From: Okeania sp. SIO2C9
GTDB taxonomy: Bacteria > Cyanobacteriota > Cyanobacteriia > Cyanobacteriales > Microcoleaceae
Direction: 5' to 3'
NCBI RefSeq assembly: GCF_010672455.1
Contig: NZ_JAAHGO010000001.1
Span: 175,595 to 239,594 of the forward strand
DNA: 64,000 nucleotides
Part shown: positions 2,508-21,587 of the stretch, one piece after another
How the letters are laid out: each line of letters opens with the position of its first letter
Numbering within the stretch: the first letter of the stretch is position 1
Position numbers and translations under genes: made by a program
The notes under the pieces: model-generated
The model's database searches: none
The model's input: the letters and a program-made list of their open reading frames with translations, nothing else
What the model was told of the DNA's origin: nothing

Positions 2508-3293
2508 ATGAAATCACAATTAATTAACAACAAAGAGCTATCATCTCAGCAAAAAAATGAGATGTATTTACTTCTTTCGACTCATTTTGTAGGAGTAAAA
2601 AGAGATGTTTTTGATGAAGATTTAGCAGAGAAAAATTGGATACTTCTTCTCAAAGATAAAAATTCTCATCAACTGCAAGGTTTTTCTACTTTATTAATTT
2701 ACAATACTGAATTTAAAGGAGAAACGATATCGGTTGTTTATTCGGGAGATACAATTGTAGACCCTTCCGCTTGGTCTAGTTCTGCACTATCTAAAGCTTG
2801 GATCGAGGCGATAGATTTATTGAGTCAAGAGTTTGCTTTAGGGAAATTGTATTGGTTGTTAATTTGTTCTGGATATAGAACTTATCGGTTTTTACCTGTG
2901 TTTTGGCAAGAATTTTATCCCAGATTCGAGCGGGAAACTCCAAAAGAAATTCAAGATTTAATCGATTTTTTGGCAGCTAAAAAATTTGGCAAAAATTACG
3001 ATCGAGAAACCGGAATAGTTCGCTTTCTTCATCCCCATCAACTGAAAGAAGGTTTAAAAGGAATACCTCCTGAACGATTGAATGACCCTCATATTAGCTT
3101 TTTTAACAACAAGAATCCTTGTCATATTAATGGCGATGAATTGGTTTGTTTGACTGAAATTTCTCTAGAGAATTTAACAAAAGCTGGAAAGAGAATGTGG
3201 AAAAATAAAAAGACATCTCTGAAAAAGAATAGATTTTTTGCAGTAGCAGGCAGCAGGCAACAGGCAACAGGCAACAAGGAAGAAAATTTATGA
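2508..3293 (+). CDS. GNAT-like (N-acyltransferase-like) protein, first gene of the oxidative cluster
   Basis: This 261-residue protein has the length and secondary-structure pattern of a cyanobacterial GNAT-like hypothetical protein: a central strand (GFSTLLIYNT), a VYSGDTIVDP segment and a helix with W/L-rich packing (KLYWLLICSGYRTYRFLP). A clear acetyl-CoA P-loop is not obvious, so acyl transfer is inferred. The first ~245 residues look native; the last ~14 (from AGSRQQATGNK) are translated from the GGCAACA repeat block that begins at about 3236, so the original C-terminus has been replaced or extended. It is the first of ten same-strand genes; the next starts 292 bp downstream across the repeat block. 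The ATG at 2508 has only a weak upstream site (AAGAACA). Confidence 0.55.
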   Translation: MKSQLINNKELSSQQKNEMYLLLSTHFVGVKRDVFDEDLAEKNWILLLKDKNSHQLQGFSTLLIYNTEFKGETISVVYSGDTIVDPSAWSSSALSKAWIEAIDLLSQEFALGKLYWLLICSGYRTYRFLPVFWQEFYPRFERETPKEIQDLIDFLAAKKFGKNYDRETGIVRFLHPHQLKEGLKGIPPERLNDPHISFFNNKNPCHINGDELVCLTEISLENLTKAGKRMWKNKKTSLKKNRFFAVAGSRQQATGNKEENL

Positions 3294-3516
3294 AATAAAG
3301 ACACAAAATAGGCAACAGGAAACAGGCAACAGGCAACAGGCAACAGGGAGGAAAATTTATGAAATAAAGACACAAAATAGGCAGCAGGCAACAGGCAACA
3401 GGCAACAGGCAACAGGGAAGAAAATTTATGAAATAAAGACACAAAATAGGCAGCAGGCAACAGGCAACAGGCAACAGGCAACAGGGAAGAAAATTTATGA
3501 AATAAAGACACAAAAC
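3236..3516. repeat. Four 69-bp tandem units containing GGCAACA heptamers
   Basis: The landmark AAATTTATGAAATAAAGACAC occurs at about 3284, 3353, 3422 and 3491, a strict 69-bp period. Each unit has a constant part (GGAAGAAAATTTATG..AAAATA) and a run of GGCAACA or GGCAGCA heptamers. Because 69 is a multiple of three, long cysteine/leucine-rich frames appear on the other strand; they are by-products of the repeat. The first unit supplies the stop codon of the GNAT-like gene. Confidence 0.9.
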
Positions 3517-3585
3517 ACGATCCATAAGTATAATTTCTGGAGATGTCTAAAGTAAAAATCAGAATTATTTGAGTAGTTTAAGCAG

Positions 3586-4599
3586 ATGAAAGAGCAATTG
3601 AAAGTTTTTAATAACTCCGATTGTTTTATTGAGGGATGGTATTGGGCAATTCCGGCAAAAGAGTTGGGAATTGGCAAGATAAAAGCAGTTAGTTTGTTGG
3701 GCAAAGAATTGGCGATTTTTCGTAACTTTGAAAAACAAGTTATTGCTGTTGATGCTTATTGTCCTCACATGGGGGCACATTTAGCAGAAGGAAAAGTGGA
3801 AGGAGAAGGGATAAGATGTTTTTTTCACAATTGGAAGTTTGATAATGAGGGTAAATGTATTGAAGTTCCTTGTTTAAATAAATCTTTACCTGTTAATTTA
3901 CAAATCCATCCTACAGCAGAAAAATACGGTATAATTTGGGTTTGGACAGGAAAAAAATCACCAAAATCTTTACCTTTTGTCCCAGAATTAGAAAAAGAAG
4001 AATGCGATATAATAGTCGCTAATAGCTTTATTAAAAATTGCCATCCCAACGTATTAACAATTAACGCGATCGACGCACATCATTTTAATACAGTTCACAA
4101 TTTACCTCTAGAAATAAATTTCGACAAAGAAGAGATCAATGAAAATGCGATTGCTTTTAACAATACTACTAGAGGAGGTGACGATTCTTTCTTAATTAAA
4201 CTGATTCGTCCTTTTTATCGCAACGAAGTTACTTATAAAATCTGTTACTGGTACGGTAGTACGGGTACTGTAACGATTGGCCCTGACTTCCTTCATTTTT
4301 ATATTATGTTTGCTTTGCGTGGGTTGGAGGGAGGGAAGACAGCAGGAAAAACAATCTTGATCGCTAAAAAACGTTTTGGGTTACTGGGATGGTTATTTAA
4401 TCGGATTGTACTTTGCTTAACTTGGTTGGTAGGAAATTATTTTGCTAAAGGGGATACACGGATTTTTCAAACCATTAAATTTAATTTACAAACTCCGACA
4501 CCAGCGGATCGAGCTATCGTTGATTTTATTAAACATACTGAAGCTCAACAAGCTTTAAGTTGGGGAAGTTGGGGAGAAGTTGATGGTTTCAACAATTAA
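3586..4599 (+). CDS. Rieske non-heme iron oxygenase 1
   Basis: This 337-residue oxygenase component would activate O2 at a mononuclear iron fed by a Rieske cluster. The Rieske motif is complete: C59-x-H61 (YCPHMG) and C78-x2-H81 (CFFHNW). The catalytic-domain ligands are seen at D165-x2-H168-x4-H173 (NAIDAHHFNTVH). The N-terminus (GWYWAIPAKEL) resembles the Rieske group that includes DAF-36/Neverland sterol desaturase, KshA and plant PAO-type enzymes. A hydrophobic stretch near 265-285 may associate with membrane. It is a paralogue of the Rieske gene at 7405. Reductase is not encoded nearby; the ferredoxin at 8546 is the likely electron donor. The substrate is unknown. The ATG has a weak ribosome site. 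Confidence 0.85.
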   Translation: MKEQLKVFNNSDCFIEGWYWAIPAKELGIGKIKAVSLLGKELAIFRNFEKQVIAVDAYCPHMGAHLAEGKVEGEGIRCFFHNWKFDNEGKCIEVPCLNKSLPVNLQIHPTAEKYGIIWVWTGKKSPKSLPFVPELEKEECDIIVANSFIKNCHPNVLTINAIDAHHFNTVHNLPLEINFDKEEINENAIAFNNTTRGGDDSFLIKLIRPFYRNEVTYKICYWYGSTGTVTIGPDFLHFYIMFALRGLEGGKTAGKTILIAKKRFGLLGWLFNRIVLCLTWLVGNYFAKGDTRIFQTIKFNLQTPTPADRAIVDFIKHTEAQQALSWGSWGEVDGFNN

Positions 4600-4641
4600 T
4601 AATTAATAATTAATAATTAATAATTAATAATTAATAATTAA
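4592..4641. repeat. TTAATAA heptamer array
   Basis: The sequence TTTCAACAATTAATAATTAATAA.. runs with period 7 immediately at and after the stop of the Rieske gene. TTCAACAATTAATAA is the outer end of the TTACCGAA..TTGTTGAA repeat family, so this is probably a fragment of that family. Confidence 0.7.
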
Positions 4642-4803
4642 TTAGTAAGATTTGACATGGGGACGCGGAGACGCGGGGACCTGGCGTGTCAGTGACACCC
4701 TATCTCGCTATCTCTGTGTCTCCGTGTGGGGAGTGTGGGAAGTACAGGATTTAAAAAATATGGGGTTGTAAATATTCTCTGACGACAATGAATTAGCCTT
4801 GCT

Positions 4804-5046
4804 TTCAACAATTAATAATGAATAATGAATAATGAATAATGAATAATTACCTCTCCTTGAAAAGAAGAGGATTGACTAATAATGAAAAATTTTCTTTATT
4901 ATCCCCTTACAGCGGTTTTCATTTGGGTAGACCACAGTAGGGACGTTCCATGGAACGTCCCTACAAGGTTTGATGTGTGAAGATGTGGTTCATCAATTTG
5001 AAAAGCGCTGTAAAAGGGGAGGCGCATACCCACAATTTTTCGGTAA
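4804..5046. repeat. TTACCGAA..TTGTTGAA family repeat (reverse copy), interrupted by an insertion
   Basis: Read on the minus strand it starts TTACCGAAAAATTGTGGGTATG and ends TTATTAATTGTTGAA, like the nearly identical pair at 53778 and 54821. Those copies read CCCCTTTTAAGGGG across the site that is split here by 4911-5010. The ATGAATA/ATTCATT heptamers lie at its left side. Confidence 0.85.
4911..5010. mobile_element. 100-bp MITE inserted in a repeat, TA target duplication
   Basis: The ends CAGCGGTTTTCA and TGAAAAGCGCTG are inverted repeats, flanked by TA on both sides (4909-4910 and 5011-5012). Removing the element plus one TA restores CCCCTTAAAAGGGG, exactly the uninterrupted sequence of the 53778 and 54821 copies (reverse complement). 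Inside is a perfect 28-bp palindrome, GTAGGGACGTTCCA and its complement, at 4937-4964. The element adds an in-frame ATG (4977) upstream of the diiron gene that is probably not its real start. Confidence 0.85.
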
Positions 5047-5054
5047 AGAGGGAA

Positions 5055-5966
5055 ATGAAAAAAAATAAGTTTATGATGAAAAAAAATATAGCTGGTTTTG
5101 ATTTATCTCAGACAAAATGCGCTAAACTTAAACGCATATTAGATTCTCGGTTAGATAAGGTGTTGGCGGAGCCTAGCGACAGCAGTAATCACATTTACTG
5201 GGATGCTGGTTATTTTAATTTAGACAATAGCACTGTTTTTCAAAATGCTACCCTCCAGCAAAAGAAAGACATTCTCAAAGTAGCTAGTCGAGAGTTGTTA
5301 GAAGAAGCTTATTTTATCGAAAAAGCTGGAATGGGTTATATGGCAAAAATGGTGCTATTGTCGGAGACTACAGAAGAAAGGATGCTTTATTCTCTATTTG
5401 CTGCCGATGAAACTACTCATTTAGCTAAGATTATGCCCTTTCTCGAACGCATCCCTCTAGATACGGACGATCTTTTTTTACAGTTATTGGGGGATGTCGT
5501 CGAAAGTGAGGATAAAAGTGTAATTTTATTTGTACTTCAGGTGGTTTTAGAAGGATGGGGTTTGAGTCACTATCGCAGTTTAGCAAAAGGTTGTGGCGAT
5601 CGAGATTTAAGTATTGTGTTTCGCAGTTTTTTGGATGATGAGTCTCGACATCATGCTACTGGGGTAACTTTATTTCAGCAACAACATCTTGATTTGAGTA
5701 GTAGAAGGGCGATATTAGAAATTCTAGCATCATTTTTAGAGATGATTCGGGTTGGTCCTCAAAGAGTCTTAAGTGCTGTTGAGATGGTTTTGGGGGATTT
5801 ATCTCGATCGCAAAAAATCAAGTTATTTGAGGAGTTGGATGCTGAAAGTCATAGCAGTAGTCGTTTGAGTATACTTCGTTCTTTAATTGGTCAGGAAGGA
5901 AGTGTATTTGTGACTGAATTGGAGGAAAAAGGATTATTTAGTGCTTATCAAAATAATTGGGTCTAA
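5055..5966 (+). CDS. Ferritin-like diiron protein 1
   Basis: This four-helix-bundle diiron protein has about 303 residues from the chosen start. The ligands can be followed in order: a glutamate in LEEAYFIEKAG, ExxH in ADETTHL, a glutamate in LEGWGLSHY, and ExxH in DDESRHHATG. That is the E, ExxH, E, ExxH pattern of ferritin-like oxidases/oxygenases. The frame is open back to ATG 4977, but codons 4977-5046 come from inserted repeat DNA; the ATG at 5055 follows AGAGGG directly, and ATGs at 5073 and 5076 are further options. It is likely an O2-dependent oxidase or oxygenase of the cluster. The substrate is unknown. Confidence 0.8.
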   Translation: MKKNKFMMKKNIAGFDLSQTKCAKLKRILDSRLDKVLAEPSDSSNHIYWDAGYFNLDNSTVFQNATLQQKKDILKVASRELLEEAYFIEKAGMGYMAKMVLLSETTEERMLYSLFAADETTHLAKIMPFLERIPLDTDDLFLQLLGDVVESEDKSVILFVLQVVLEGWGLSHYRSLAKGCGDRDLSIVFRSFLDDESRHHATGVTLFQQQHLDLSSRRAILEILASFLEMIRVGPQRVLSAVEMVLGDLSRSQKIKLFEELDAESHSSSRLSILRSLIGQEGSVFVTELEEKGLFSAYQNNWV

Positions 5967-6116
5967 AACCCCACCTAAGCAAAATGTTTTTGGAGACTTG
6001 CTCAAATCCCCGTTACAAAAACAACTTCTGACTGTGATGAAGTGTGTCTTACATTCTGTTTGCGTAGCATTTCCTCCAGAAAGGGGACCTCAGAATTACA
6101 CACTCGCTTCTGACTT

Positions 6117-6148
6117 CTGTAGGGGTGATTCGCGAATCACCCCTACAG
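6117..6148. repeat. Perfect 32-bp palindrome (REP-like)
   Basis: CTGTAGGGGTGATTCG is followed directly by its exact reverse complement. Related palindromes with GGGCGAAT..ATTCGCCC lie at 18649 and 18728. It sits between the two diiron genes and could act as a terminator or RNA-end structure, although no T-run follows. Confidence 0.8.
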
Positions 6149-6176
6149 ACTTCTGACTTCGTTATCCTGCTCATTT

Positions 6177-7418
6177 ATGCATTTTTTAGAATTTTGTGTT
6201 ATGAATAATATTTTCGAGGAAGTTAAGGATAATCGTTTGCCTTGCGATTCCTACGCAATGGGGAGTAAACACCCATTCTATCACAAGTTAAAAGTTAATT
6301 ATAAGCGCAATCGTAAACAGGATTGTACTGAATTGTTGGATGCTGTTGCTGCTGATTTTTGTTACCAAGATTGTCAAAATGAGTATTGGCATCCAGAAGA
6401 GTTTTCTTTACTTTATGGAACTCGTTTATGGCAGCAATCTAGTCCCAGTCAAAGGATTATTTTAAATCAGCTTTATTGGGTAGCTTATTATTCTCAAATT
6501 ATTTCGGCTGAAATTGCTACTATTTTTTTTAATCAGACTAGCGCTGCTGGGCTTTATGCTCAGGAAGATTTTCGTTTAGTTTGTGATACTTTAGATTTGG
6601 AGTCCAGTCAAGAAAGGGCGCATATTAATGCTTTTAAGATTATTTGTGAACGAGTAGAAGCTAGTTTATTTGGAAGGCGTATTTTTTCTTATCCGATGCG
6701 ATCGCCTTTTTCTGAAACTATGATTTTTGCCGATACTAATCGGTTAAAAAGTTGGTGGAAGAAGGTACAGTTACATTGTTTTGGTTTGCTTTCTTCTGAC
6801 AATACTTTTTTAGCTTGTCAGTATTTTACAGTTCGCGGACTGAGAACTTTAAATGGGAAAATAGTTCAGCATCAACTCAGTCGTTATTATCAAAATTATG
6901 TGGATAAAAATCAAGTACCGATTCCGAGCAAAATTTCTTATTATCATTTTCTTGATGAGAGTTTTCACTTTAATAGTTCGACTATTATCTCTCAAGATGT
7001 TATAAATTGTTTGCCAAAACCGACTAAATTTGAAAAAATGGTAGCTAATTTAGGAATAAGAGGTTGTCAAAAAGACCACTATCATTTTTCAGTAGCAATT
7101 AACGGGATTTTTTGGTACGATCCGGCACTATATTCAGCGATTTATCAAGTTCTTACAAGTAATATTTTTGGCATGGACTCTCGCGAAGCAAAAGAAATAA
7201 TGTTGGCTTGTTTTACAACAGAATCGGAAGGATTATATAGAAGTTATAATACCCATAAAGAAGCTGTCGAATCTTACAAGGTTTATATCGAATCTCTCGA
7301 TTATATCTGGCCGAGTAATCGAGAAATGTCTTTAATGAGTTCTAACTCTATAGATAAATATTTGGCAGTTCAAAAACGATTGTTTTCTAAATGGGAAAAA
7401 AACCATGAAAATCTTTAA
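6177..7418 (+). CDS. Ferritin-like diiron oxygenase candidate 2 (AurF-like)
   Basis: This protein has 413 residues. Helical segments carry possible diiron ligands: a glutamate in IISAEIATIFF, ExxH in SSQERAH, and ExxH in LDESFHFNS. The spacing and the long inserts recall AurF-type N-oxygenases and other large ferritin-like oxygenases more than the smaller protein encoded just upstream. The third-helix ligand is not certain (LSRYYQNYV region). A start at 6201 (MNNIFEE) is as likely as 6177, since neither has a strong ribosome site. Its last 14 bases overlap the start of the next Rieske gene, so the two are probably translationally coupled. Family membership is inferred from motif pattern only. 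Confidence 0.6.
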   Translation: MHFLEFCVMNNIFEEVKDNRLPCDSYAMGSKHPFYHKLKVNYKRNRKQDCTELLDAVAADFCYQDCQNEYWHPEEFSLLYGTRLWQQSSPSQRIILNQLYWVAYYSQIISAEIATIFFNQTSAAGLYAQEDFRLVCDTLDLESSQERAHINAFKIICERVEASLFGRRIFSYPMRSPFSETMIFADTNRLKSWWKKVQLHCFGLLSSDNTFLACQYFTVRGLRTLNGKIVQHQLSRYYQNYVDKNQVPIPSKISYYHFLDESFHFNSSTIISQDVINCLPKPTKFEKMVANLGIRGCQKDHYHFSVAINGIFWYDPALYSAIYQVLTSNIFGMDSREAKEIMLACFTTESEGLYRSYNTHKEAVESYKVYIESLDYIWPSNREMSLMSSNSIDKYLAVQKRLFSKWEKNHENL

Positions 7419-8463
7419 TAATTGGGATGTAGTTGCTAAAGGTTGGTATATTGCTTGTCCCAGTCAAGAAATACCTTTAAATAAGGCAAAATCTGTAGAA
7501 ATTTGCGGGCAAAAAATTGTTTTATTTCGTGGTGAAGATGGCAAAGTAAATGCAATAGAAGCTTATTGTCCCCATTTAGGAACGGATCTAGGAATTGGCA
7601 GAGTAGATGGAAATTATATTCGCTGTTTCTTTCACCATTGGGCGTTCGATGGCGCTGGTAATTGTCAAGATATTCCCTGTCAAAATACTATTCCTACTCG
7701 AGCTAAGTTACAAGCTTATGTTACTGATGAAAAATATGGCTTTATTTGGGTATATCCAGATAAAGAAGCTCCGGCAGGAGTAACAGAATTTGATGAATTA
7801 AAAGGTAAAAAATTATTATCAGTAGCAGACAAAGCATTTACGCGCAGTTGTCACCACCATATTTGTATGATGAACGGTATCGACTCACAACATCTACAAA
7901 CAGTCCATAAGATAAATATCGAAATGGATTTAAAATTGCAGCAAAATCGAAGGGGAAATATTATTGATTTTACTCTCAGTGGCAAATTTCCTAACCAGAC
8001 TTTTAGAGAGAAAATCGGACGGAAATTTTTAGGCGAAAATTACGAATATACGATGAGATATGCTGATGGTTGTATGGGACTTTTAACCATAATGAAAAAT
8101 GTGAAATTATTTCCTCAGTTACATATGATTTATGCTTATACTCCTCTCGATGGAAAGACTCGCATTCAACCTATTTATGTTACTGAAAAGCGCGGAGGTA
8201 TATGGGGAAATTTAGTTGCGAGATTCTTAATTTTTTGTACTCGACTTACTTATTATGCCTTACGAGATGAAGACGGACAAATTTACGATAATATTCGTTT
8301 TAATCCAAATATTTTGCTCGATATAGATACACCATTGGCAAAGTATATGGAATATGTGAATAAATTAGATATATCTCTCTGGAGTAAATTTAACCTTGAA
8401 GAAGGCAGAAGGCAGAAGGCAGAAGGCAGAAGGCAGAAGGGAAGGAATGAAATTAGAAGGTAA
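7405..8463 (+). CDS. Rieske non-heme iron oxygenase 2
   Basis: This 352-residue protein is similar to the Rieske protein at 3586. It has the Rieske cluster motif YCPHLG then CFFHHW, and iron ligands in NGIDSQHLQTVH (D-x2-H-x4-H). The conserved GWYIACP start and the Rieske-domain spacing match the DAF-36/KshA/PAO-like group. The final ~20 residues are a repeated heptapeptide (EGRRQKA) translated from a GGCAGAA heptamer array at 8401-8440, so the native C-terminus ended near FNLEE. The gene overlaps the upstream diiron gene by 14 bp, and a ferredoxin gene follows after 82 bp. Substrate unknown. Confidence 0.85.
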   Translation: MKIFNNWDVVAKGWYIACPSQEIPLNKAKSVEICGQKIVLFRGEDGKVNAIEAYCPHLGTDLGIGRVDGNYIRCFFHHWAFDGAGNCQDIPCQNTIPTRAKLQAYVTDEKYGFIWVYPDKEAPAGVTEFDELKGKKLLSVADKAFTRSCHHHICMMNGIDSQHLQTVHKINIEMDLKLQQNRRGNIIDFTLSGKFPNQTFREKIGRKFLGENYEYTMRYADGCMGLLTIMKNVKLFPQLHMIYAYTPLDGKTRIQPIYVTEKRGGIWGNLVARFLIFCTRLTYYALRDEDGQIYDNIRFNPNILLDIDTPLAKYMEYVNKLDISLWSKFNLEEGRRQKAEGRRQKGRNEIRR

Positions 8464-8545
8464 AAGGTTTTCGACAACTAATTATCCGGATTTGATATAA
8501 GGGAAAATAGCAAAATATTTCCGCTCAAACTGAAGGAGAATAAAA

Positions 8546-8917
8546 ATGAATCAAAATACTTACAATATCAGCTTTTCAGATACAAAATATCCAACTTTAG
8601 CCTTAGAAAGAGACTCCCAACTTTCCCAACATCTAACAGTACAAAATTCTCCCGTATTATTTGGATGTCGAACGGGTATTTGTGGAACTTGTTTAGTAGA
8701 AGTAGAAGGAGATATCCCACCACCAAATTCAGAAGAATTAGAAATACTAGAAATATTCTCACCCGGAAATAAACAAGCAAGACTAGCTTGTCAAATAAAA
8801 CTAACAAATAACATCAAAATCATTGAAGAAGGAAGAGGGAAGAAGGAAGAAGGAAGAAGGAAAGAAGTAAGGAAGGAAGGAAAGAAGGAAGAAAAAGTGG
8901 ATGGGGATAGTCTCTGA
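8546..8917 (+). CDS. 2Fe-2S plant-type ferredoxin
   Basis: This small electron carrier has the C-x4-C-x2-C cluster motif in FGCRTGICGTC and the fourth cysteine in ARLACQI. The native part is about 90 residues, normal for the family; the remaining ~30 residues (EEGRGKKEEGRRKE..) are highly charged and encoded by a purine-rich GGAAGAA-type repeat. A strong ribosome site (AAGGAG) sits 7 bases before ATG 8546. Placed between Rieske genes 2 and 3, it is the obvious electron donor for the oxygenases of this cluster; no dedicated reductase is present, so photosynthetic FNR may supply electrons (inference). Confidence 0.9.
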   Translation: MNQNTYNISFSDTKYPTLALERDSQLSQHLTVQNSPVLFGCRTGICGTCLVEVEGDIPPPNSEELEILEIFSPGNKQARLACQIKLTNNIKIIEEGRGKKEEGRRKEVRKEGKKEEKVDGDSL

Positions 8918-8997
8918 TCGGCCACTCCGCGTCTTATAACCCCAACCAATTTTAAACACTCCCATTGACGGTGGGATATTAAACCCAAAAGAAAAAT

Positions 8998-10014
8998 ATG
9001 AAATTTGAAGATTTTTGGTATATAGTTGCATTAAGCAAGCAACTTAGGAAAAATCAAGTATTAAGTCGAACAATATTAGGAGAATGGTTAGTAGTATTTC
9101 GTGACGAAGATGGTAAACCAGTTGTGTTGCGCGATCGCTGTATGCACAGAAATAATCGTTTATCTTGGGGTAAAGTAAATGCAGGTAAGATTCAATGTCC
9201 CTATCACGGTTGGGTGTACGATGGCACTGGTAAAGTTGTCTCTGTACCTGCAGAAGGGGATAATTTTAAACAATTAAACTGTCGTAGTGCAAAATCTTAT
9301 CAAACCAGAGAAGAAGACGACTATATTTACGTCAAACTTTCAGATAATAACGAGTTTAATCCTTTTCCCATGCCTTATTACCGTCAACCTGGTTGGGAAA
9401 CTGTACGAGTAATTAATCGCTTTCACAACAATATTACCAATTGCGCCGAAAATTTTATCGATATTCCTCACACTGTAACAGTACATCCGGGGATATTTCG
9501 CAACCCCCGGAAACAAAAATTAACGATGACTGTGGAGAGGAAAAACGGATCGGTATTTGTCGAATATCTACAAGAGACTAATAATTTAGGATGGTATGCC
9601 AAATTTCTTAATCCCAGTGGTGCAGAAATTCAACATACAGACAGTTTTCAAATGCCTAATATTACCAGTGTCGAATACAACTTGGGAAAAAATAGAAGGT
9701 TATTTATTACCAGTCAATCTATTCCCGAAACAGAGGACTCTACTTTAGTTTACACCGACGTTACCTATAACTACGGCATTTGGAATAAAATTGCTCGTCC
9801 TTTTGTATATTGGACTGCTCAATATATTATCAGTCAAGACGTGCAAATTTTGAACCTTCAGCAAGAAGTAATAAAAAAATACGGGACTAATTTTGCTAAT
9901 ACACCCGCAGATACTATTCACATTTTTGTCGAATCTATTATTGATAAAATTGCTATTGGAGAAGATCCTAGACAATTAGCAAATAAAGCAGTAAATGTAA
10001 ATTTTTGGGTTTGA
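8998..10014 (+). CDS. Rieske non-heme iron oxygenase 3 (VanA-type)
   Basis: This 338-residue protein is clearly different from the other two Rieske proteins. It starts FEDFWYIVA, has Rieske motif CMHRNN then CPYHGW, and carries the catalytic signature NCAENFIDIPHTVTVH (D-x2-H-x4-H), as in the vanillate-demethylase/PobA-like group of oxygenases. The length is typical and both ends look intact. It starts 80 bp after the ferredoxin and closes the tight part of the cluster. It is likely to hydroxylate, demethylate or desaturate an intermediate made by the neighbouring enzymes. Confidence 0.87.
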   Translation: MKFEDFWYIVALSKQLRKNQVLSRTILGEWLVVFRDEDGKPVVLRDRCMHRNNRLSWGKVNAGKIQCPYHGWVYDGTGKVVSVPAEGDNFKQLNCRSAKSYQTREEDDYIYVKLSDNNEFNPFPMPYYRQPGWETVRVINRFHNNITNCAENFIDIPHTVTVHPGIFRNPRKQKLTMTVERKNGSVFVEYLQETNNLGWYAKFLNPSGAEIQHTDSFQMPNITSVEYNLGKNRRLFITSQSIPETEDSTLVYTDVTYNYGIWNKIARPFVYWTAQYIISQDVQILNLQQEVIKKYGTNFANTPADTIHIFVESIIDKIAIGEDPRQLANKAVNVNFWV

Positions 10015-10171
10015 AGAAGAAGTCAGGAGTCAGGAGTCATATCAAATTCGGTTGAATACTTATCATATATTTGGGGGTGGGAAGTGTGGGGAGGGTGGGG
10101 AGTGTGGGGAAAAGGGGAGGTCGAGAGATTGAAGACTCCGAAAGTGTGGATAGAATTATAAACATAAATTT

Positions 10172-10310
10172 TTACCGAAAAATAAAGGTTTAAAGCCTCT
10201 CCTTTAAAGGAGAAACAAGAAAAACTTTTCCTTTGATTCAATCCTATCCGTTTTCAAGAAGAGGTAATTATTAATTATTAATTATTAATTATTAATTATT
10301 AATTATTGAA
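10172..10310. repeat. TTACCGAA..TTGAA family repeat
   Basis: It starts TTACCGAAAAATAAAGG, has a CTCTCCTTTAAAGGAGA hairpin and AAGAAGAGGTAATTA, and ends in a TTAATTA heptamer run with TTGAA. The same order of landmarks is found near 13975, 17554, 24739, 38986, 42289, 53778 and 54821. Confidence 0.75.
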
Positions 10311-10405
10311 GACTACCTCCTCTATAATTTCCATTTCTCCTGTCTCCTGTCTCCTGTTTCCTGTCTCCTACCACTCATACTTTATTCAGCAAACCCTATC
10401 TAAAA

Positions 10406-11122
10406 ATGATTGTTTTTATTACTTTTTGGGTTTTGACGATTTTAACTTTAACTCGTCAAGATGTATGGAAAACAAATTGGCAAGATTGGTTGCTAGATAT
10501 GACTGGATTATTATTTCAGGGTTTGGTCATACCAGTACTACAAATTACAGTAGTTTACCAAGGCTATAAATTTCTTCTCCCTCACTGGGAAAATAGTATA
10601 AATATTACTTCAGTCCCAGCTTTTATTCTCAGTTTTGTGTTAATAGATTATCTCTATTATTGGAACCATCGTCTATTACACAGTTCTTGGTTTTGGCATC
10701 TGCATAAAGTGCATCATACTGTCACTCAGAGAAATGTTTTTGGAACTTCTAGAAATACTCTATGGACGAGTTTTTTCATTATCTATCTTTGGGTACATTC
10801 CTTATTTATTTATCTACTAATAGATCCGAGTTGGTACATTTTAGGAGTTAGTCTTACTTCTGCTTTAGATTTATGGAGGCATAGCGAAATTGAACCGAAA
10901 TCTAACAATTTTCTCGCTCGCTTTTTATCTCCTTGGTTGATACTTCCTCAAGACCATGCTTGGCATCATAGTAATAATCCCCAAATAGGTAATTATGGTG
11001 CTAACTTAAAAATTTGGGACGTAATTCACAGGACTAATTTTACTAGCGATAAACCTCCTCAAAATCTGGGAATTACAACTCAACTTACTCTTAAACAAAA
11101 ATTATTTTTTCCTTTTAAATAG
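10406..11122 (+). CDS. Fatty acid hydroxylase / sterol desaturase family protein
   Basis: This 238-residue membrane diiron enzyme has the family's histidine boxes: HRLLH, HKVHH, WRHS and HAWHH, with three to four membrane spans around them (QGLVIPVLQITVV, VPAFILSFVLIDYL, FFIIYLWVHSLFIYLL). The closing GANLKIWDVIHRT resembles the family's conserved C-terminal IWD motif. It would hydroxylate or desaturate a lipid-like substrate, which fits a lipid-derived product of the cluster. A 391-bp gap with repeats separates it from Rieske gene 3, on the same strand. Confidence 0.85.
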   Translation: MIVFITFWVLTILTLTRQDVWKTNWQDWLLDMTGLLFQGLVIPVLQITVVYQGYKFLLPHWENSINITSVPAFILSFVLIDYLYYWNHRLLHSSWFWHLHKVHHTVTQRNVFGTSRNTLWTSFFIIYLWVHSLFIYLLIDPSWYILGVSLTSALDLWRHSEIEPKSNNFLARFLSPWLILPQDHAWHHSNNPQIGNYGANLKIWDVIHRTNFTSDKPPQNLGITTQLTLKQKLFFPFK

Positions 11123-11253
11123 CTATCAGCTTTTAGCATTCAGCATTCAGCATTCAGCATTCAGCTTTTTGACCTTGGGTTAAATCCCCAGCTTCTATAA
11201 GCCGGATAGTTTAATATCAAGTCTCATTAATTAGCCATAATAAATTAACTATC

Positions 11254-11373
11254 GGGTGCATCTCAATTTTGAATAGAGCCAAAAATTTATCGCTTTTAGG
11301 CAACAGGCAACAGCTCATCTGGCAACAGGGAATATATAGGAAAAAAGTATTTTTACAAATATGAGATGCACCC
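11254..11373. repeat. TIR element, GGGTGCATCTCA family, copy 1
   Basis: The ends GGGTGCATCTCA and TGAGATGCACCC are exact 12-bp inverted repeats around 96 bp with GGCAACAGGCAACAG heptamers. A second copy in the other orientation is at 57646. On its left it abuts a fragment (ATATCAAGTCTCATTAATTAG at ~11211) that also forms the left end of the element at 59272, so it probably landed in that older repeat. Confidence 0.85.
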
Positions 11374-11608
11374 TAGCTATCTTTAGTCATCTTTTAGATG
11401 ACTTCTGCTTTGAGCCAAGAAATTTATTTCTTGGCGGATGACATAGCTCGCCAAGGATTTCAATCCTTGGCTAATAGTTTAAGTCATCTTAAGATGACTC
11501 TTGAGGAGTGGTTAATCAGTGTTTGATATAAGAGGGATATCCCCTCTTAAACATAAAAAAATACTAATGCTGAGTGCTGAGTGATATTTCATTATTAATT
11601 ATTGAAAC

Positions 11609-12223
11609 ATGACTTTATTAAGTATCCTACTATCTTGGTTTCCCAGTATAATAATCTCCCTCGCAATCGGTTCCTTTATCTCGATTTGTTTCCATCCTAA
11701 TTTTTTGAATATATCTTGTCTAATTTTTATTCTTTACGGAATACCTCTAATTATCTATCGAATTCATAATCTTTTTTATCCCCTCGAAGCTGGAGTAACT
11801 TATTTATTAGACAAAAAATATTCACCTTGGTGGGGCAGTCATCAAATTCAAACAATATATATTGCCTTTCCATTTTTAGAAACATTATTACGTCTCATCC
11901 CCGGATTATTTTCAATTTGGTTACGACTTTGGGGCGCAAAAATTGGTAAAAATATTTATTGGACTCCGAAGTTAGAAATAGCCGATCGAGGATTAATTGA
12001 AATCGGCGATAATGTAATTTTTGGCTACGGAATAAGACTCTATTCTCACGTTATTAAACCTAAAAATAATAACCTAATGTTGTATGTCAAAAAAATTAAA
12101 ATAGGCAACAATGTCTTTATCGGAGCTGGTTGCCGTTTCGGCCCCGGTGTCAATATAAAAGATGAAACATTTATCCCCGTAACTACAGATTTATATCCCA
12201 ATAAAAATGCGAATATTAATTAA
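11609..12223 (+). CDS. Membrane-anchored left-handed beta-helix (hexapeptide) acyltransferase-like protein
   Basis: This protein has 204 residues. The N-terminal ~55 residues hold two hydrophobic helices (LLSILLSWFPSIIISLAIG; ISCLIFILYGIPLII). From about residue 110, hexapeptide-like turns appear (KIGKNIYWTPK, LIEIGDNVIFGYG, KIKIGNNVFIGAG, GPGVNIKD), typical of trimeric acyl/acetyltransferases. The catalytic histidine could be in RLYSHVI. The gene overlaps the GH3 gene by 17 bp, so the two are coupled, suggesting acyl transfer and acyl conjugation in one pathway branch. Acyltransferase activity is inferred from the fold. Confidence 0.7.
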   Translation: MTLLSILLSWFPSIIISLAIGSFISICFHPNFLNISCLIFILYGIPLIIYRIHNLFYPLEAGVTYLLDKKYSPWWGSHQIQTIYIAFPFLETLLRLIPGLFSIWLRLWGAKIGKNIYWTPKLEIADRGLIEIGDNVIFGYGIRLYSHVIKPKNNNLMLYVKKIKIGNNVFIGAGCRFGPGVNIKDETFIPVTTDLYPNKNANIN

Positions 12224-13691
12224 CTTATTAGCTAAAATATTAACCCCTACTGCCAACAAATTTGAGCAAAGTTTGTTAAATTCAGAAACAACACAAAAAG
12301 CAGTTCAAAAAGAAATATTCGATCGCTTTATAAATAGTGAATATGGCAAATATATCGGCATAAAATCTTTAGAAGACTGGCAAAATATCCCGGTTGTCAA
12401 CTACGAAGATATAAAACAATGGATCGAACCTGGTAAAAATAAATTATTAACCCCAGAAACAATCATATTTTACGAAAAAACATCGGGAAGTAGAAGTCAA
12501 GCCAAATTAATCCCTTATACAAAATCTTTACGAAAATCTTTTAATCAAATGTTTTGTATTTGGGCACAAGATTTGATTAAAAATGGTCCCAAATTTACTA
12601 CGGGAAAAATCTATTTCTGTATCTCCCCTCAATTAGAAGAAAATCAAGAAAATTTAGGATTAGAAGACGATTCAGAATATTTAGATTCTTGGTTGAGATT
12701 GTTTTTGAGTCCTTTTATAATCTTCTTGCCAAAAAGATTCAAAACAGTAGAACAATTTAAAGAAAAGCTCTGCCTTAAACTCCTAGAAACAGAAAAATTA
12801 GAAATAATATCAATTTGGAGTCCGAGTTTCTTAAAAATACATCTCGAATATATTCAAACCCATCAAAAAAGATTAGCAGAAAAATTAAAACATCGTATTT
12901 CAGAGAAACGTTATAAATTGTTACTGCGATCGCCAATTCCTTGGACAAAACTCTGGCCACAACTTAAACTAATATCCTGCTGGGATAATGCTTCCTCGAA
13001 GGAACAAGCAGATTATTTACGAGGATTATTTCCAGGAGTAATGGTACAAGGCAAAGGACTGCTAGCTACAGAAGTACCGATGACTGTACCCTTAATTAAA
13101 GCTTCTGGATGCGTACCATTATTAGATGAAGTATTTTTTGAGTTTGAAGGTAGGGATAAAAATATCTATCCACTGCATCAACTAGAGAAAGATAAAATAT
13201 ATTCCGTCATTATTTCCCAAAAAGGGGGATTATACAGATATCGGAGTGGCGATCGCGTATTAGTTACAAAATTTTACTTGAATACTCCTTGTCTAGAATT
13301 TATAGGTAGAGAAGAAAATACTAGCGATTTAGTGGGAGAGAAATTACATGAAGATTTTGTTGCAGAAGTAATTAGAAAGTTATCAATTACAAAAAGTTTT
13401 TTTAAGAGTCTAATTCCCATAAATAGTTCTCAACCCCATTATGTCTTAGTAGTCGATAGCCTTGACGAACCCCGATCGGAAATTGCTAAAAATTTAGACC
13501 AACTTTTAATGCAATCGTACCATTATCGTCAAGCTAGATTATATGGCCAATTATCACCAGCAAAAGTTGTAGTTTCTCCTGATATGCTAGAAAAAATTTT
13601 ACAACAAAAAATAGCCTGTGGAAAAAAATGGGGAGATATCAAACACGAAATTTTAATGACTACGGCCTATCTTTCAATAATGGATAATTGA
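12207..13691 (+). CDS. GH3-family acyl-amido synthetase (acyl-adenylating)
   Basis: This 494-residue member of the ANL-related GH3 family would adenylate a carboxylic acid and pass it to an amine or amino acid; plant members conjugate jasmonate or auxin. Visible motifs are the nucleotide-binding loop YEKTSGSRSQAKLIPYT (about residues 91-107), the middle motif GLLATEVPMTVPL, and YRYRSGDRVLV with the downstream LEFIGREENTSDLVGEKL, which corresponds to the family's YR..GD..V and F..R motifs. The length is normal for bacterial GH3 proteins. It overlaps the upstream acyltransferase-like gene and is the last gene of the cluster, which suggests that the pathway ends with a carboxylate being conjugated. 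Confidence 0.9.
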   Translation: MRILINLLAKILTPTANKFEQSLLNSETTQKAVQKEIFDRFINSEYGKYIGIKSLEDWQNIPVVNYEDIKQWIEPGKNKLLTPETIIFYEKTSGSRSQAKLIPYTKSLRKSFNQMFCIWAQDLIKNGPKFTTGKIYFCISPQLEENQENLGLEDDSEYLDSWLRLFLSPFIIFLPKRFKTVEQFKEKLCLKLLETEKLEIISIWSPSFLKIHLEYIQTHQKRLAEKLKHRISEKRYKLLLRSPIPWTKLWPQLKLISCWDNASSKEQADYLRGLFPGVMVQGKGLLATEVPMTVPLIKASGCVPLLDEVFFEFEGRDKNIYPLHQLEKDKIYSVIISQKGGLYRYRSGDRVLVTKFYLNTPCLEFIGREENTSDLVGEKLHEDFVAEVIRKLSITKSFFKSLIPINSSQPHYVLVVDSLDEPRSEIAKNLDQLLMQSYHYRQARLYGQLSPAKVVVSPDMLEKILQQKIACGKKWGDIKHEILMTTAYLSIMDN

Positions 13692-20014: not shown

Positions 20015-21367
20015 TTAACGTCGTACCTTACCTAAAGCGATCGTGACATCCACAAGCATATTCATTGCTACATCTTTACCAGGACAGATGCGTCCAGCAC
20101 TACGATCGCCTACAGAATGGAAACCCATGTGGAAAGGGCAAAGATTTTCTCGGTTGGCATCAAATTGATAGGTTGTCGGACCCCAAAAGCTCTCGTCTAA
20201 CAATCCTAAGCTCATAGGAATCAATATTTTTGTACCAGTAGGAAAAGTTCTATATCTGCCAGCTATTGTCACTGTAAAAGTATCGGTTGCTATTCTATGG
20301 GAGGCACTAACGGGTGCCCAGAGACGGGAACATTCTAGGAGATAGAGTCGCACAGACTCTCGGTTGTCTAGGTCGAGTTCATCCCAATAATGAGTAGGGT
20401 TAATTTCAGATGTATTTCTACCTTTGTAGGCGGGAAGAGGTCGATCGCCCATAGCAGTTTGACCAAGATGTAGAGGACCTTGTAAAGCGGCTATACTCAT
20501 AATAGATGTCATCAGTTTGGCTAATTCTCGTCTTGTCATGCCATTATACTGATCGCTCTGTTCGTTAAAGTTGGCTAATACAGGAGAATTTTCATATATG
20601 GTTGCTGCTTGCTCGATGGACTCTGAAATTTTTCCATGCCTAAATATGTTTAACTCCTCTAAGATAGTACTAACACCTGCAAAGTAGCGCAGTGTACCCT
20701 GGCGTGTATAGTGTAAATCTGTGAGGAAGTCCATTGTAGCTTGATCGTTAGGGTCTAACTGAAATAAAACATAGTGAAGATATTCAATCAGAAACCGTTT
20801 CCAACCCCGCTTATCCTCGCTAAAGAAAGCCCCACCAGGGCCGTGAGGCATATCTATATAATCTGCTGCTAACTTTTCAATAAGTTGTCTGGCGATCGCA
20901 TCTTGCTGACGTGCTATTGAGGAGTCATTGAGAATATAATCCTGTAAACATCTACGGAAAGCTTCATGGCTATTACTACCTGTTGCTTCTTGGTCTGAAA
21001 GTGCTAGTAGGAAAACATTTCTGCCACCTACATCTTGGTTAGGCAAATGATTTGCTTCTAGTACAGTAGTCCCTAAATGCCATGTTCGAGCTTGAGGAGA
21101 AGTCAATGCTGTTTCTATGGCTTCAAATTCTCCCATTACTACCTGGCCAGCACAACAAAAGTTTGGTCCTAAAACTAGGCGTTTCTGGTCTAGGTATGTA
21201 GGAATATTTGCTACTAAACCTTCTATGAAGATAATTATTGGCAGCAAGACTTTGCTAAAGATATTTTCTGGATGTTGAAGTGCCCAGATTTGAAAATTAT
21301 TCAGCCCAATATCTATCAATGATGCTGTATGGGTTGGTTGTTGTCTTGGCGGGGTGGTTGAAGTCAT
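20015..21367 (-). CDS. Cytochrome P450, possibly CYP74-like
   Basis: This haem-thiolate protein has about 450 residues from ATG 21367 (MTSTTPPRQQ); a frame extension to 21436 is open but less likely. The K-helix ExxR is in LLECSRLWAPV, the PxGT turn in FPTGTKILIPM, the meander in FWGPTTYQFDANR, and the haem ligand in GRICPGKDVA. The long insertion before the cysteine and the C-x-GKD form recall CYP74 enzymes, which rearrange lipid hydroperoxides without O2, but this sub-family call is tentative. A conserved I-helix AGxxT is not obvious, which would fit that idea. Divergently placed from the secreted VOC protein at 21898. No redox partner is adjacent. Confidence 0.75.
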   Translation of the reverse strand: MTSTTPPRQQPTHTASLIDIGLNNFQIWALQHPENIFSKVLLPIIIFIEGLVANIPTYLDQKRLVLGPNFCCAGQVVMGEFEAIETALTSPQARTWHLGTTVLEANHLPNQDVGGRNVFLLALSDQEATGSNSHEAFRRCLQDYILNDSSIARQQDAIARQLIEKLAADYIDMPHGPGGAFFSEDKRGWKRFLIEYLHYVLFQLDPNDQATMDFLTDLHYTRQGTLRYFAGVSTILEELNIFRHGKISESIEQAATIYENSPVLANFNEQSDQYNGMTRRELAKLMTSIMSIAALQGPLHLGQTAMGDRPLPAYKGRNTSEINPTHYWDELDLDNRESVRLYLLECSRLWAPVSASHRIATDTFTVTIAGRYRTFPTGTKILIPMSLGLLDESFWGPTTYQFDANRENLCPFHMGFHSVGDRSAGRICPGKDVAMNMLVDVTIALGKVRR

Positions 21368-21587
21368 ATTGTTTTTCTCTGTGGTTGTTGAAAAAATAGG
21401 GGCATAAGTAGTAATAATTAGTAAACAGTCTAGCATTTGATGCGAATTTTATAACCTACATTTCGCATCTCAAATACAGTACTTACGACTATATATGGCG
21501 CTACGCGCTAGGGAACAGGGAATAGTTGACTTTCAAAGGGTTTCAGCATTGGAAAATATCCTAACTTGAACGGGTAGTGCTATATAA

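Follow-up and report, generated by a model that had tools for sequence, protein, structure and literature searches.

Conservation and partners of a ten-gene oxidative cluster with a GH3 synthetase in Okeania sp. SIO2C9

The question raised by a run of ten genes in the cyanobacterium Okeania sp. SIO2C9 is whether these mostly oxidative genes form one unit and, if so, what kind of compound they make. The stretch of DNA analysed here (the window) is 64,000 nucleotides long and spans positions 175,595–239,594 of contig NZ_JAAHGO010000001.1. The ten open reading frames (ORFs), all on the plus strand between window positions 2508 and 13691, lie at the coordinates given by an earlier annotation made from sequence alone (the original prediction), as do overlaps of 14 bp between g4 and g5 (7405–7418) and of 17 bp between g9 and g10 (12207–12223). 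They code for a GNAT-fold, acyltransferase-like protein (g1), Rieske oxygenases A and B (g2 and g5, or RieskeA and RieskeB), a ferritin-like diiron protein (g3), a CylC-clade diiron enzyme (g4), a ferredoxin (g6), a VanA-type Rieske oxygenase (g7), a membrane hydroxylase-family protein (g8), a hexapeptide acyltransferase-like protein (g9), and a GH3-family acyl-acid amido synthetase (g10). We somewhat favor reading the ten genes as a single biosynthetic pathway that turns an acyl chain into an N-acyl amino compound or aminolipid that is oxidized and possibly chlorinated.

The ten genes are a real unit: they are conserved and inherited together, they are intact, and purifying selection acts on them. 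A search of genome contigs with the GH3 gene gave 52 loci, whose fetched flanks were often ended by contig ends; all ten genes lie within ~21 kb in 21 of them, with nine genes in 7, eight in 2, two to seven in 13, and GH3 alone in 9. The genes are thus kept together in many genomes, the point that the original prediction had singled out for checking. Ten of the 21 complete loci are fully colinear with the window, rising to 20 when g5 is ignored; the inserts between g6 and g7 vary among the loci compared, and one codes for a PIN-domain protein. RieskeB lies inside the cluster in the window, as in Calothrix, and outside it in Planktothrix. Twenty loci lack g4; 17 of these were queried, and a g4 orthologue (59–73% identity) is present elsewhere in all 16 genomes that were searchable. 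Over up to 31 loci, pairwise distances are correlated among nine of the genes (r 0.83–0.98, to which host kinship contributes), and the ratio of nonsynonymous to synonymous substitution rates is 0.04–0.29 in all 56 gene-by-pair comparisons, which together with the synteny argues that the cluster is not a product of chance.

The GH3 gene is an all-or-none partner in this pathway, an association that is new here. In a phylum sample of 386 genomes, 33 have GH3 matches at E≤1e-10 and 33 have g4 matches; with cuts at visible gaps (GH3 at E≤2.9e-78, the next match being at 5.2e-68, and g4 at ≥57% identity, the next being at 35%), the two sets are the identical 21 genomes. The gene-by-gene counts, which cover g1–g5 and g7–g10, used comparison genomes without the GH3/g4 pair that were chosen rather than random (nine for g7 and g2; twelve for g1, g8, g9, and g5). 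All 21 pair genomes have g1, g2, g7, g8, and g9 (the last split over two contigs in genome G038), and 19 have g5 at ≥48% identity; the best g7 match in the comparison genomes is 36%, g8 is in none of them, and g9 is in one (G058). Proximity alone does not explain the association of GH3 and g4, since the two are 27 kb apart in G027, and in G076, G093, and G125 the genes are widely separated or lie on other contigs. These genomes with scattered genes still hold the set, which is likewise new here.

The gene on which the nature of the product turns is g4 (6177–7418), which on its motifs is a CylC-type diiron protein and not an N-oxygenase. CylC-type dimetal-carboxylate halogenases resemble AurF (PMC8406957), and g4 matches the Pfam AurF family weakly (E 2.5e-4; 20.8 bits versus a gathering cut-off of 29.6); assignment as an AurF N-oxygenase was rejected on this score, and a PDB profile search with g4 gave no match. 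It has the ExxQExxH and HxxDExxH motifs (LESSQERAH and HFLDESFH) set out in PMC12101540 and PMC12871659, and is the single CylC-homologue match in its source genome. Nine active-site residues are described for the chlorinase NocO, and alanine at any of them abolishes chlorination (PMC12101540). We aligned 24 cluster-type rows with 20 further full-length CylC-like proteins, omitting two partial ones, and all 44 rows keep E112, Q145, E146, H149, H257, D260, E261, and H264 (g4 numbering). The remaining site, three residues after a lysine invariant in all 44 rows, is glutamine in the 24 cluster-type rows (Gln231 in g4, codon 6867–6869) and glutamate in the other 20, and we refer to the two groups as Q-type and E-type; g4 is ~27–37% identical to the E-type proteins fetched. 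The two groups separate in a tree with 100/100 support on a Q-type stem of 1.78 changes per column, and a PriA-type locus (L123) falls inside the Q-type clade. By alignment and tree, then, the CylC-like enzymes of this pathway are a clade with glutamine at the glutamate that NocO needs for chlorination, which is new here. A small subset with glutamine at this position (NocO E252, AurF E196) has been noted (PMC12101540), and seems from its sequence signature to be this pathway's clade.

Two rival accounts of g4 bear on the product. It may well be, although we stop short of calling it probable, that g4 is an ordinary CylC-type chlorinase in which Gln231 is merely tolerated, and that the product is a chlorinated fatty amide. 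The other eight published residues are kept in all 24 Q-type rows, g4 passes both annotation motifs, and the NocO E252A variant still binds iron, so this glutamate is probably not a ligand; that variant is inactive, however (PMC12101540), and the long Q-type stem and the genomic context both count against this account. No fatty acyl-AMP ligase (FAAL) or acyl carrier protein (ACP) is encoded in the cluster, whereas FAAL-like and ACP-like proteins are both nearby in 15 of 19 E-type loci (L104–L122, with those of L104 confirmed by Pfam and an E-type paralogue in L062 excluded from the count), the exceptions being L115, which is at a contig end and has an ACP alone, and L110–L112, which have neither. 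We give serious but not majority weight to the second account, in which g4 is a diiron C–H oxygenase or desaturase that arose within the CylC clade and is not a halogenase, with every oxygenase in the cluster introducing oxygen or unsaturation. The clade-specific glutamine, present in every Q-type row and in a Myxococcales copy, is consistent with it, as is the sequence after the HxxDExxH box, which is HFNxS in 24/24 Q-type and HTxxS in 20/20 E-type rows; against it, the glutamine of ExxQExxH is kept, and one preprint calls that glutamine halogenase-specific. Two of the genomes with scattered genes, G076 and G093, carry a second, E-type CylC-like protein (L111 and L112), the L111 copy adjoining ABC transporter genes, and in L110 (1850–5303) an E-type protein is flanked on one side by a PfaD/nitronate-monooxygenase protein and on the other by a 2Fe-2S ferredoxin.

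The synthetase g10 (12207–13691) has GH3 N, M, and C domains scoring 97.4, 56.3, and 42.9 bits, all above the 23.6 cut-off, and nucleotide motifs TSGSRSQAK, ATE, and YRSGD; strict versions of these patterns match 52, 69, and 59 of 71 relatives, respectively. Its best solved relative is JAR1. By family it is an enzyme of acyl activation and amide synthesis, and the conjugation step that the original prediction assigned to it is plausible and gains strong support from the co-occurrence with g4. A bacterial GH3 protein, OlsH, makes N-acyl ornithine (PMC12493201), and this precedent raises the alternative, which we regard as improbable, that the product is a phosphorus-free, ornithine-lipid-like amino membrane lipid formed under nutrient stress and not a secreted natural product. 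In its favor, phosphorus limitation is reported to induce ssl2559 (fed6), the Synechocystis ferredoxin gene discussed below, and to do so more weakly in a phoB mutant (PMC11126600), although the authors of that report attribute the induction to an upstream operon under PhoB. Orthology of g10 with OlsH was rejected (14 bits versus an NCBIfam equivalog cut-off of 620 bits), and by Pfam the cluster has no OlsI- or OlsG-like gene.

Accessory genes in other loci touch on the same chemistry. Amidohydro_3 and Mpo1-like genes adjoin RieskeB in Microseira, Planktothrix, and Microcystis-labelled loci, some of which add GT2 and SnoaL genes. The amidohydrolase (≥65% identity) is present in 11 of the 21 genomes, once as a partial copy, and not in the genome of the window; N-acyl-D-glutamate deacylase and D-aminoacylase are among the solved proteins nearest to it. 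Mpo1 is named in Pfam for 2-hydroxy-palmitate oxidation, and a PDB profile search with the Mpo1-like protein gave no match. Two loci (L092 and L096) have a distant GH3 together with a g1 relative (GNAT) and a fatty acid desaturase, with a VanA-type Rieske gene nearby in L092. Both the extensions and the distant GH3/desaturase loci suggest a chemistry of acyl chains and amides. Elsewhere in the phylum, L094 and L095 have GNAT, GH3, and hexapeptide genes together, L094 being flanked by radical SAM and amidohydrolase genes.

Across the cluster, the enzymes retain their metal, Rieske, and nucleotide motifs, the single change being that in g4. Pfam assigns Rieske domains to three proteins, g2 (3586–4599), g5 (7405–8463), and g7 (8998–10014), with an additional VanA_C domain in g7, and a Fer2 domain to g6 (8546–8917), a [2Fe-2S] ferredoxin that we call Fed6-type by its cluster position. 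The Rieske motifs, which in g2 accompany mononuclear-iron motifs, are kept in 35/35 relatives of g2, 44/44 of g7, and 20/22 of g5. Genomes that lack the cluster have RieskeA paralogues (~60%) at L128 and L129, where no further cluster gene was seen within ~7 kb. The g8 protein (10406–11122) matches FA_hydroxylase, the 'sterol desaturase' family (PF04116, 85.8 bits), and its His boxes are present in 48/48 relatives. The diiron protein g3 (4977–5966) matches Pfam Ferritin_2 weakly (E 0.006), its best Foldseek hit has E 2.4e-3, and its weak structural matches include AurF, PaaC, and aldehyde-deformylating oxygenase; a PDB profile search likewise gave weak matches only, and the ligand set E110, E145xxH148, E192, and E222xxH225 is invariant in 21 sequences. 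Its start is probably near 5076 rather than at the GTG at 4977, since relatives begin at about that point, residues 1–47 are modelled at a predicted local distance difference test (pLDDT) score below 50, and the part before it is similar to another region of the genome that is riddled with stops. The 261-residue g1 protein (2508–3293) has no Pfam match and is predicted to adopt a GNAT fold (model pLDDT 88.7), and g9 (11609–12223), whose N-terminal half appears hydrophobic by eye, scores 26.5 bits against the Pfam hexapeptide cut-off of 27.

The resemblances of the Rieske proteins could suggest instead that the genes degrade or detoxify a hydrophobic environmental compound, sterol-like or aromatic, which we think very unlikely. 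Their best curated match is the 4beta-methylsterol monooxygenase SdmA, and among solved proteins g2 is closest to 3-ketosteroid 9alpha-hydroxylase, but the curated matches are far below their cut-offs, Pfam assigns none of the ten to a family for uptake, ring cleavage, or beta-oxidation, and an ATP-using amide synthetase fits synthesis better. The sterol- or carotenoid-like starting material entertained by the original prediction fares no better, having weak family resemblance only, whereas a pathway that oxidizes a hydrophobic scaffold is still the best reading and, by Pfam, the ten genes do lack a polyketide synthase, nonribosomal peptide synthetase, or terpene cyclase. A saxitoxin-type cluster was considered and rejected, SxtDIOX and SxtT being merely among the nearest solved Rieske proteins.

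In the biosynthetic pathway that we favor, the substrate would be a long acyl chain, free or amide-bound since no carrier protein or FAAL is encoded. Hydroxylation, desaturation, or chlorination of the chain would fall to the membrane hydroxylase/desaturase g8, to three Rieske oxygenases (g2, g5, and g7), and to the diiron proteins g3 and g4, with electrons supplied by the ferredoxin g6; for g4 the reaction would be C–H chlorination or, given Gln231, another C–H oxidation. The GH3 synthetase would adenylate the carboxylate and couple it to an amine, such as an amino acid; further acyl groups would be attached by g1 and g9, giving the oxidized, possibly chlorinated product. We infer the order of these steps, the substrate, the amine, and any halogenation.

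Several observations weigh against this pathway or against the strength of its co-occurrence evidence. The cuts were chosen after the data had been seen, and the genomes are not phylogenetically independent. Twelve further genomes have a weaker GH3 without a Q-type g4, including G199 (36%), which has g1. Of the 24 genomes in the sample with g3, three (G058, G091, and G174) are outside the 21 pair genomes; g2 relatives at 54–61% occur in four of nine pairless genomes (G199, G101, G382, and G167); and g1 is in three of twelve (G199, G062, and G058) and is weak in the pair genomes G229 (40%) and G038 (32%). In addition, g4 lacks a glutamate needed for chlorination in NocO, and the GH3 enzyme need not act last.

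The cluster was found in scattered cyanobacteria and in one Myxococcales metagenome-assembled genome. One contig of the latter has RieskeB, g8, g7, g6, g4, g3, a short-chain dehydrogenase/reductase gene, g1, and RieskeA (31–60% identity), and another has g9 and GH3; its g4 keeps Gln231. That a Myxococcales genome carries the set is new here, and misbinning is possible. Among the sampled genomes with the same family label as the window, just two of twelve (G000 and G255) have the cluster. This sparse occurrence and the position of RieskeB, inside the cluster as in Calothrix and not outside as in Planktothrix, hint at transfer; in a tree of eight joined protein alignments the window is not firmly placed (support 64–69). 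Spread on plasmids was rejected, as plasmid records hold CylC-like proteins at 27–28% (4 records) and GH3 proteins at 27–32% (6 records) and no cluster-type genes. The locus in G058 (L125, 5126–7488), where g9, a g3 with two stops, and g1 stand side by side with neither GH3 nor g4, is a cluster remnant.

Heptanucleotide short tandem repeats occupy spacers of the window cluster (3245–3515, 4594–4642, 8400–8440, 8825–8893, and 10265–10307), and in places enter the genes, contributing the last ~20 residues of g1 and the C-terminal tails of g5 (from 8400–8440) and g6 (from 8825–8893). A 69-bp unit, repeated 3.9 times, runs over both the end of g1 and minus-strand ORFs at 3122–3525, which look spurious. 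Promoter and terminator scans of the cluster are near chance (61 versus a mean of 47.1, sd 7.6, and 9 versus 9.2), so that expression of the ten genes as one transcript is not established. Elsewhere in the window, a minus-strand ORF of 473 residues (20015–21436) with a CPGKD-like motif at its end looks haem-thiolate- or peroxidase-like by eye.

A broader proposal, which we hold to be rather unlikely as a whole, is that the Q-type enzymes are distinct, carrier-protein-free diiron C–H catalysts acting on free or amide-bound acyl chains and that with GH3 they make new multiply oxidized, perhaps chlorinated, N-acyl amino lipids, shared by scattered cyanobacteria, probably including Synechocystis, and at least one myxobacterium. 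For an orphan class of cyanobacterial clusters already in print, the present findings supply the substrate-activating enzyme that had been missing and a fuller parts list, and the Gln/Glu active-site difference sets the class apart from known halogenases. Probably g4 and GH3 correspond to sll0266 and sll0225 of Synechocystis PCC 6803, on which the literature gave scattered mentions only (one being that sll0266 is down under iron depletion). The set seems to be present in dispersed form in Synechocystis-type genomes. As a complete deletion of the ferredoxin gene fx6 (ssl2559) is reported there (PMC8887894), the product and the halogenase question appear testable in a tractable laboratory strain; an earlier statement that fed6 is essential in PCC 6803 (PMC4284462) conflicts with that deletion and is not relied on here.

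The original prediction held that the cluster was undescribed, a point on which it is only partly right; its narrower statement that no characterized cluster has this set agrees with the open-licence literature, in which we found no characterized product and no account of the cluster with GH3. A 2014 review of Synechocystis (PMC4284462) lists as fed6 'cluster f' a hypothetical gene, a Rieske gene, two hypotheticals, fed6, a second Rieske gene (pobA), a sterol desaturase, and a hypothetical. This order is that of g1–g4 and g6–g9, with RieskeB additionally inside in the window; the main text of the review has neither GH3 nor a halogenase, we found no pathway put forward there, and g6 is identified with Fed6 by gene order. 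A survey of 95 CylC clusters (Eusebio et al. 2021; PMC8406957) describes an orphan 'Rieske-containing' class (n=36) whose members combine a single CylC homologue with between two and four Rieske proteins and, in most cases, a member of the sterol desaturase family. The cluster fits this class in its three Rieske proteins, g8 and single CylC homologue g4, in lacking a carrier protein, and in occurring mainly in Nostocales and Oscillatoriales; in the tree of the proteins fetched, g4 also falls in a Rieske/PriA clade set apart from PKS-type CylC homologues. The survey infers fatty-acid substrates and reports no substrate activation nearby, and the terms GH3, auxin, amido, and hexapeptide are absent from its main text, whereas GH3 is obligate here.

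Relative to the CylC/NocO diiron halogenases, g4 shares the QExxH and HxxDExxH active site but differs in having glutamine at NocO E252 and in its lack of FAAL and ACP partners; the paper on NocO (PMC12101540) does not mention Rieske proteins. The GH3 synthetase is like OlsH (PMC12493201) in its family and in its predicted joining of an acyl acid and an amine, but is not its orthologue and lacks OlsI- or OlsG-like neighbours among the ten genes. From Synechocystis, the CylC survey (PMC8406957) also describes a related class of five 'PriA-containing' clusters, and the gene set of locus L130 in genome G076 is like it. In L130 a PriA-like ORF, recognized by eye, a CHASE/GGDEF protein, and g4-g3-g2-g1 are found with an adjacent fatty acid desaturase gene, which we take by eye to be DesD. 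The other genes tested, GH3, g5, g7, g8, and g9, are elsewhere in G076, with GH3 adjoining an ORF whose counterpart in the sister locus L088 is Ycf4, and the PriA type is this pathway in dispersed form. The cluster has thus been sighted in kind before as an orphan class, and what is added here is the obligate GH3, the glutamine clade, and the dispersed complete sets.

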